The notes under the pieces were generated by a model. It did not search any database. It was not told the origin of the DNA and saw nothing but the letters and a program-made list of their open reading frames with translations. The translations under genes were made by a program, and so were the position numbers. Shown here piece by piece: positions 51,601 through 53,990 of a DNA stretch of 64,000 nt. The stretch's first letter is position 1. Each line of letters opens with the position of its first letter. The stretch is from Agrocybe praecox (Eukaryota; Basidiomycota; Agaricomycetes; Agaricales; Agrocybaceae): contig OZ024840.1 of assembly GCA_964017145.1 (NCBI GenBank), forward strand, positions 620,001-684,000, in the 5' to 3' direction.

Positions 51601-52157
51601 GGAAAAGGAAAGTCTTTAGATTGACGCTCTGCATTTGCAAAAAAAGAGAAAAGGTTCCGCCACTATGAACTTACCAGAAAGAACAGCCCAGATAACACGG
51701 AGTTATGGTTTGATGGAAACCATTATAACATTATGGTCCGGATCTATAGGGAATAAGAAGATAGGTTTTAGCGCAAATGATGGAACAGGGCAGGCAGGCA
51801 TAGACCCCATCGGAAAGGCCCTCGTTAAGCCGGAAAGAATAGACTCACATTCTTGCTCACAATTGCGCTGTTTGAGTGCACGTTTTCGGTGGACATTCAT
51901 TTCCGGACGTTTTTGGTGACAATGTTCCAAATTGACGTAATGGCGAGATCATGTTGTTTTGAGACACCAAATTGGTTTTGTTTTGTGCAAAGGCAGTAGA
52001 AGCAATGTAAAGGAGATAGAGACGATGAGTTTCGGTTCGCAACATCAAAAAGAGGAGAAATAAAAAGGAGTAAATGTACAAAAATGCGGTAATGTAGAAT
52101 AGGAAAGATATAATGCAAAAGCAAATAACAAATAAATAAAGAAAAAAGAAGGGGAAG
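48684..52157. other. 3.5 kb gene-poor region
   Basis: No confident gene. From about 49031 a plus-strand frame of 115 codons, and further on a Ser/Asp/Glu-rich stretch (DSKSESESDSEDD, near 49620-49655) followed by a clean GT-AG intron of about 60 nt, hint at a decayed or unrecognised gene, but no consistent model could be built. Two related short phrases around gtatacatac lie near 49322 and 49474. From about 50.4 kb rightward the plus strand is strongly purine-rich. Confidence 0.4.
51221..51247. repeat. GAT trinucleotide microsatellite
   Basis: Nine tandem GAT units, not in any called gene. Likely polymorphic. Confidence 0.9.
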
Positions 52158-53990
52158 TCATATCAAAGCTGCCGTGGCAAGACTATCTCGGAGGATCATG
52201 CTAAAAGTCACAACGGTGATAAGCTCGCAAATCGACACATGGGGCGGAGATAGCACCATAAAAACAAAAAGATAGAATGCAAAAGATGAAAGAATACCAG
52301 AGAAATAACATTAAGAAAGTAAAAACTCACTCTGAAAAAGAAGAATAGTTAGAAATGTCAATGTTTTCGCCAGATTCTGGAAGCTCGTACCTTCAACTGC
52401 GGCCATTACCACGCGAAGCATTGCCGTATCTGTTGCAGTAGTCACACTGGTGAGAGCAAAAATTAAGGTGGCGAGAGAGTTCGAGGAATTTTAAGTAACG
52501 CGTGAAGGGCCATCAGAACGAGAAAATAGACGTTGGGACCAAAAACGACTTACTGAATGTATATTTCTCGCTCCTTCGACCTGCCGGCCTTCTGAGCTAA
52601 TCGACCAAAGCGCTTCCTGAAATACTCGCGTCCGCTTTTAGCATCACCTGGTTCGCCGTCGAAATCCTGAACATGTGATATGTCAACTGAGATGGACTAG
52701 ATGACTCGTGTCGGAGGTTAGAACACTCACTGGGAAAAAGTTCTTGATATGTGAGGTGGCAATCTTCTTCTCAAAGAGATCGTTTTTGTTAAGGAACAAA
52801 ATCTAGGAGCGGAGTTAGTACCGGGCCAAGTAATTACTACCACGGGCAGGACTTACTATCGAGGTCTTTTTAAACCATTGCGAATGGCATATTGAATCCC
52901 AAATTGTCATAGCATCTTGCATTTGGTTCTGAAGGAGTTAATACAGTCAGGGTAGAAGTGATAAAGAGGTTGGCAATATAAACTTACCGCGTCTCGATCT
53001 TCTACCAAGCACTGGTCGTATCCGCTCAAGCTCACCAAGAAGAGAATACTTGTGACGTCCTGGAAGCAATGAATCCATTTCCTTCTCTCACTCTTCTGCC
53101 CACCAACGTCCACCATTAACATTTCATGTTCGCGCAGTTGGAACGTCGTCTCCGTAATACCAATAGTCCGCGCACGACACCGAATAATATCTTGTTCTGT
53201 CGGTTGATAGGCCGGTTCGAATAATCGGTCCAAGTCAGAGAAATAATATTGTAAACTATGGCCATTTAGTCAACATTGAATAGGAGAAATGAAATACGAT
53301 CAGATGCGTACTTTTCTGGTAAAGCCGCCTCGTTCCCCCTTTCCCAAGCCTTCTGTACATTAGGATCCTCCCATAATAACTTGAGGGGCTGAAGATACTC
53401 TTGAGGGAATGGTTCACCATCTCGAATATCTCTTGCCGAATCGACCAATTCCACGTTGGGATTATTCTGCTCTTCTACCTGCAGTTCCATTTCCTCCATA
53501 GCGTCCAAGACATACCTAAGACCACGAGTTAAGTTGTCGAATATTAACTGTCGATAGTGTTCGATTTCGGATGGGGAAAATGGGACTTTGTGGATAAGTC
53601 GCATTTGCTGAGAAAAGACAGGGGTTCACATGTGTCAGTCGACCCTGGGTGATGGTAAAAAAATGTGGGGCGACGATAACGTACCTTGAGGATAGTCGAC
53701 TTTCCCGAATCTCCTGACCCAAGAAGAAGAACCTGAGCATGAAGTTGAATGGCCTCGCAAGGTTTAAATCAAGGCCTCAGTCGAACGAACCTTCACTTGC
53801 GCCGCCATCTTCGCTTTTGCCTACATAAAATGTGCAATTAGTGTATGGATACGAAGGCAGATTACATGGGCCGAGGCGAAAGAGGTATTACGATACGCAC
53901 TTCTTTGAGCTGTTTCTCGACTTCCCGGTTCATCAGCTTGTCCTGCTCGCTGACTTCGATCGCCTCTGGAGCAGACATGCAAGCACCCAT
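52158..53990 (-). CDS. Heterotrimeric G-protein alpha subunit, divergent class
   Basis: Membrane-bound GTPase signalling from seven-helix receptors. The start [19 protein letters not shown] has the Gly2 myristoylation and nearby Cys acylation signals. P-loop [12 protein letters not shown] (usually GAGESGKS); helical domain; switch [10 protein letters not shown]; switch [29 protein letters not shown]; and [17 protein letters not shown] with the TAT guanine-binding motif. After MAAVE the exon ends in phase 1 at 52391. The next acceptor is followed by a single A (52331) and at once by a strong gtgagt donor. Joining G+A+C across it gives Asp and then [17 protein letters not shown] (52200-52158), the expected receptor-contact tail. 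Without the one-base exon the tail cannot be read: either direct joining or retention gives an immediate stop. The rest of the gene shows no lesion. Confidence 0.9.

Follow-up and report, generated by a model that had tools for sequence, protein, structure and literature searches.

A conserved single-nucleotide exon as a probable shared relay to two alternative receptor-binding ends of a mushroom G-alpha protein

Can the C-terminal tail of a G-alpha gene be read without an exon of a single base, and if it cannot, what would such an exon be for? Single-nucleotide exons have, to our knowledge, been reported for very few genes. The question is raised by a gene on the minus strand of the window, by which we mean the whole 64,000-nucleotide stretch of Agrocybe praecox DNA that was analysed. 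The spliced gene model has nine coding exons of the ordinary kind, then an exon of one base and a terminal one. Exon 1 (53901–53990) carries the start codon and MGACMS and is followed by exon 2 (53791–53820), exon 3 (53685–53732, with the P-loop GSGDSGKST), exon 4 (53312–53607), exon 5 (52988–53255, with DVGGQ), exon 6 (52857–52928), exon 7 (52731–52802, with NKND), exon 8 (52554–52666) and exon 9 (52391–52446). Spliced to the first of two tails (T1), these exons give an intact protein of 362 residues in which the P-loop, DVGGQ and NKxD motifs, the GTP-binding motifs of G-alpha, are all present. The PF00503 profile is matched from position 4 to 333 of 333, with an E-value of 1.3e-121 for the T1 form and 3.6e-121 for the form with the second tail (T2). 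The predicted protein is clearly similar to solved G-alpha structures, and its alignment to G-alpha-11 reaches through VED...SL, the homologous G-alpha-11 segment being AAVKDTILQLNL. Judged by its predicted product, the gene is that of a heterotrimeric G-protein alpha subunit, whose relatives go under the names GPA2-like or 'subunit 4'.

Exon 9 closes with MAAVE at the donor gtacga, in phase 1 (GTT GAA G). The next intron (52332–52390) has a CTAAC branch-like site and the acceptor ttctttttcag and, at 59 nt, is of normal size for this gene, in which introns 1–8 are 54–107 nt long. Directly behind the acceptor stands a single A at 52331, followed by the donor gtgagt of a 130-nt intron (52201–52330), so that a single base separates a usable AG acceptor from a usable GT donor (cag-A-gtgagt). 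The T1 terminal exon (52158–52200) then supplies C, 13 residues and a stop, and the A becomes the middle base of an Asp codon, G-A-C. The coordinates, phase, acceptor and donor given in the original prediction are all correct. The two dead ends that it foresaw are there as well: exon 9 spliced to the T1 exon without the A reads VEA-stop, and the middle acceptor used with the second donor ignored gives, by reading of the sequence, VEE-stop.

The further claim that no join other than G + A + C stays in frame was too strong. We enumerated splice paths between 52446 and 52158, covering joins to T1 only, and ten keep T1 in frame, four with a single intron (GT- or GC-AG) and six with two (GT-AG); one of them, for example, reads through the 59-nt intron and splices at 52327. 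What survives of the claim is the Asp: VED directly before T1 is obtained by one path of the ten, the one with the one-base exon, and along the other nine the sequence ahead of the tail has altered, missing or extra residues. Moreover, the stretch 52390–51868 holds a single AG-N-GT site, which is 52331, and its base is the A that gives Asp.

At the level of the genome, the motif CTAAY-N(2-25)-Y6NCAG-A-GTRAGT has one site in 59,170,728 bases, which is 52331, and its reversed control has none in the same 59,170,728-base genome, by a search that may skip very common words. The looser Y6NCAG-N-GTRAGT, which dispenses with the branch site, has 14 genome sites versus 18 for its reversed control. Since the looser motif is at background genome-wide, one-base exons could not be recognised by it alone; as far as the sequence can tell, what does mark one is that here the motif falls where the frame breaks at a conserved codon. 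Other Y6NCAGNGTRAGT strings among the 14 lie, for instance, at C1:1692856 and C9:2849560.

The conservation of this codon can be followed in related proteins. Three protein searches gave 164 distinct homologues, taken from the best 120 of 1522, 206 and 207 matches. Because the queries included the tail and only the best rows were used, tailed proteins were favoured, yet 23 tail-less genome models ending VEE-stop were among them. From the tables we assigned the homologues to 70 short-contig proteins (jgi, lgn, ena), 93 NCBI genome models and one found in nr only (P0035), and we corrected tail classes by hand for P0158 and P0153 (non-Asp T1), P0159 (T1) and P0025 and P0075 (T2). VED plus a tail ends all 70 of the listed short-contig proteins (longest contigs 1.1–3.2 kb) and none of the 93 listed NCBI genome models; annotations thus miss the predicted end. 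In the search ranked by full length, VED was found in 53 of 53 listed jgi, lgn and ena proteins, with tail-less genome models ranked alongside. Contig beyond the coding sequence amounts to less than 459 nt in 28 of the 70 and to less than 300 nt in 10; less than 459 nt is too little for nine introns of at least 51 nt, so those 28 would be cDNA-like if their intron number is similar. The 70 split into 42 with T1 and 28 with T2. The commonest letters of T1 are IVLRSNLEVAALI, with 13 residues after the Asp in all 42 listed short-contig T1 proteins, and those of T2 are AIISKNIREIML, with 12 residues after the Asp in 27 of the 28 listed (P0025 has 11). T1 of the window agrees with the best other listed T1 tail at 10 of 13 residues.

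The 93 listed NCBI models end quite differently: 23 in VEE-stop (as does the nr-only P0035), 18 in a non-Asp T1, 11 in a non-Asp T2 and 37 in read-through or other ends, P0150 included, while three have no VE site (P0003, P0054, P0098) and one, the Serpula lacrymans model P0067, has the only VED of the 93, followed by the unrelated end PPYYVMSASGFN. VEE-stop is the product expected when the acceptor is used and an A/GTGA or A/GTAA donor is ignored, and can thus be taken as a footprint of the same arrangement; read in this way, the VEE-stop genome models look like gene-model errors. Many of them come from what we take to be Agaricales, and they also include Grifola (Polyporales), Bondarzewia (Russulales) and Punctularia (Corticiales). 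From the protein ends alone we infer that relatives carry CAG-A-GTRAGT, and with a footprint in these orders the arrangement seems old and common to many mushroom relatives. Viral contigs scanned for DNA of relatives gave one pattern match, and none was confirmed. A separate feature of the NCBI models is VEG followed by T1 or T2, with no change in length relative to VED plus tail, in 14 of the 93 listed (P0006, P0010, P0117 and P0139, for example). Possibly an extra A in the reads was aligned as a mismatch to the G of gt or ag, in which case these ends would be a trace that the one-base exon left in the annotation. The Lactarius tabidus model P0150 joins almost directly to IRDIML, which fits a separate second T2 exon in that species.

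These ends bear directly on the original prediction's reading of the locus as a switch between tailed and tail-less G-alpha. Skipping of the A, or retention of the last intron, would indeed yield VEA-stop or VEE-stop, and the 23 VEE-stop models could be cited as its products, but any gene model that ignores the second donor A/GTRA yields the same VEE-stop, and none of the 70 listed short-contig relatives is tail-less, whether by VEA or by VEE. That the one-base exon is real and serves mainly to turn the tail on and off is therefore very unlikely in our judgement. The interpretation is thus borne out in part: gene anatomy and relatives lend strong support, as far as sequences can give it, to the one-nucleotide exon as such; the choice between tail and no tail is not supported. 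A switch that exchanges one tail for another is likelier, and the other tail (51867–51723) was absent from the original prediction.

As the VED relatives carry either of two tails, we searched the window for T2, and it is present downstream of T1. Its first exon (51849–51867) is preceded by ACAG, reads C-GCA-ATT-GTG-AGC-AAG-AAT (C + AIVSKN) and is followed by the donor gtgagt; a 105-nt intron (51744–51848, gtgagt...ccctatag) separates it from the second exon (51723–51743), ATC-CGG-ACC-ATA-ATG-TTA-TAA, which gives IRTIML and a stop. Together the two exons encode AIVSKNIRTIML, for a spliced end of VED-AIVSKNIRTIML. T2 would be reached by an alternative 463-nt intron (51868–52330) that skips T1 and shares its gtgagt donor, so that two complete alternative 3' coding ends, 52200–52158 and 51867–51849 plus 51743–51723, lie behind one donor. 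The T2 acceptor, ACTCAAACAG, is without a good pyrimidine tract. Read behind G + A, T2 gives VEDAIVSKNIRTIML, identical to the end of P0005, a relative with a transcript-like sequence, at 15 of 15 residues; for the part after VED the identity is 12 of 12, and the best of 600 dinucleotide shuffles of the region reached 5 of 12. Without the A at 52331, T2 reads VEAQL-stop. The same base is thus needed by both tails, for VED before T1 and for an open T2, as the middle base of the same Asp codon. A T2-like string at 51926, NIVTKNVRK-stop, has no AG directly before it and was rejected in favour of the exons at 51867–51723.

The second tail also bears on whether the frame break is real. Had one base been lost in assembly before the last exon, or were the gene a pseudogene, the true intron would be a plain phase-1 intron, and an A lost just before 52200 would likewise restore the Asp. 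We give this explanation almost no weight: T2 is an independent exon that begins without the same base, so two matching errors would be needed, the VEE-stop footprint recurs in 23 of the 93 listed genome models of relatives, and the remainder of the gene is intact.

A further question is whether T1 and T2 are alternative ends of one gene or mark two paralogous G-alpha genes. Two species have genome models that would fit paralogs. The Armillaria solidipes models P0107 (T2) and P0153 (T1) are identical at 319 of 347 residues and may be true paralogs, and the Mycena olivaceomarginata models P0132 and P0162 lie on different contigs with one tail each; the latter are sisters in a tree of the protein bodies and, as annotated, have an aligned identity of 300/355 with 52 gap positions. 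In the window, however, one donor precedes both tails, and tail type follows the body tree no better than chance. This tree, built by a quick method, comprised 97 bodies, that of the window and those of 96 tailed relatives longer than 300 aa; P0134, P0140 and P0145 were too short to enter it. The tail label changes 29 times on it, against a mean of 30.5 when shuffled, with 155 of 500 shuffles as low, and a minimum of 15 changes follows from the starred branches by themselves. Tail type is thus scattered over one gene tree, which argues that T1 and T2 do not mark two old paralogs. Closely similar bodies carry different tails: P0081, which is a genome model from Suillus ending in T1, and P0094, a short-contig protein ending in T2, are identical at 345 of 348 residues. 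The short-contig bodies P0127 and P0152, which have one tail each and group with Mycena, match at 376 of 390 without gaps and, with these 14 differences, are the closest such pair among the listed short-contig proteins.

The other G-alpha genes of this genome point the same way. At about 17 further G-alpha-like places a crude scan, in which the tails were readable in five, showed no similar tail arrangement. The full tails read at L010, L011, L012, L014 and L016 all have 13 residues; L011 has Glu at the place of the Asp and no intron at the equivalent place. Two of these loci, L016 (C12:1383594) and L014 (C12:1404114), have almost the same tail (VHDVIFKKMLEEKNLI and VHDVILKKMLEETNII) and are separated by about 20 kb, probably as a local duplication. 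The single donor, the tree and the crude scan together make two paralogous genes a highly improbable source of the two tails.

From the sequence, then, we consider it very probable that two alternative terminal exons, which exchange the receptor-binding end of the G-alpha protein, are both reached through the conserved single-nucleotide exon as their common relay. Two splice machineries would hardly fit on one base, so the 59-nt intron would presumably be removed first. The junction of exon 9 and the A would then read AAGA/gugagu, a fresh 5' splice site, which could be spliced to the T1 acceptor 130 nt away or, with T1 skipped, to the T2 acceptor at 463 nt. One gene would thereby give two forms of G-alpha, alike except for the last 12–13 residues; both tails would be used in this species, and the choice between them may be regulated. 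In G-alpha proteins it is the tail, as the last part of the alpha-5 helix, that inserts into the receptor. By homology both tails would form this last part, so the choice between them should alter receptor coupling; T2, with 12 residues after the Asp to the 13 of T1, may also sit differently in the receptor. The wider proposal is that the exon, kept across Agaricomycetes, must be passed through in a regulated choice that directs one G-alpha to different receptor sets, and that standard annotation has concealed this in all 93 listed genome models; in our view it has about an even chance of being right. As to origin, the 59-nt intron could at a later time have inserted itself one base upstream of an older phase-2 intron (...GA/gtgagt) that had two alternative last exons. 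In both tails the first base is the third of the Asp codon, and such a history would explain this anatomy.

If removal is sequential, as it probably is in practice, the locus resembles the fungal stwintrons, in which two introns are removed in turn at one position, and a nested intron of this kind would leave an identical mature RNA. In the donor-type stwintron, as the available portions of that literature describe it, the internal intron splits the external donor. Here, in contrast, no splice element is interrupted: gtgagt is intact and contiguous at 52330–52325, and one exonic base is kept between the introns. A stwintron-like structure in place of an exon between two introns therefore seems to us barely credible, and we retain the one-base exon as the relay.

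If confirmed, the arrangement would mean that a mushroom G-alpha has its receptor repertoire set by splicing. It would also give a manageable system, located in a core signalling gene, for testing how the spliceosome deals with a one-base exon. Broad searches of the open-licence literature returned, among titles and abstract beginnings at the top of the list, no report of alternative G-alpha tails in mushrooms, and likewise not the combination of a one-base exon with alternative G-alpha ends across Agaricomycetes. The G-protein terms looked for are absent from the main text of two papers on alternative splicing in mushrooms (PMC10532568, PMC5034255).

The components of the arrangement do have counterparts. 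In the available extracts, single-nucleotide exons are described for plant APC11 (PMC4674806, PMC8831610) and VPS55 (PMC8831610), for mitochondrial cases (PMC5436844, PMC12308204) and for CYP621A of Fusarium, where there is read support (PMC12940212), and a regulated microexon is described in Trichoderma (PMC11121469). Like the present exon, those of APC11 and VPS55 are one base long, required for the frame, conserved over a large clade and absent from reference annotations (PMC4674806, PMC8831610), and VPS55 also shares the conserved donor GTRAGT and gives different proteins with or without the base (PMC8831610). In contrast to both, the gene here is a fungal signalling gene, and the base lies close to the stop and is common to two 3' ends rather than included or skipped. 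The CYP621A exon is likewise a fungal one-base exon (AG-G-GT) that restores a conserved motif and was found by a frame conflict; however it belongs to another phylum and another gene, its base is G and not A, and the extracts on it describe no alternative terminal exons (PMC12940212). The recursive splicing exons resemble our proposal in that joining to the preceding exon makes a new 5' splice site, whereas here the base is retained in the mRNA and needed for the frame (PMC6224609). A parallel in function is vertebrate GNAO1, as far as the source excerpts describe it, in which one G-alpha gene has mutually exclusive sets of terminal exons with different receptor-coupling ends (PMC5896119). There, exons 7–8 are swapped; in the mushroom gene the exchange would affect 12–13 residues only, and it would be relayed through an exon of one base.
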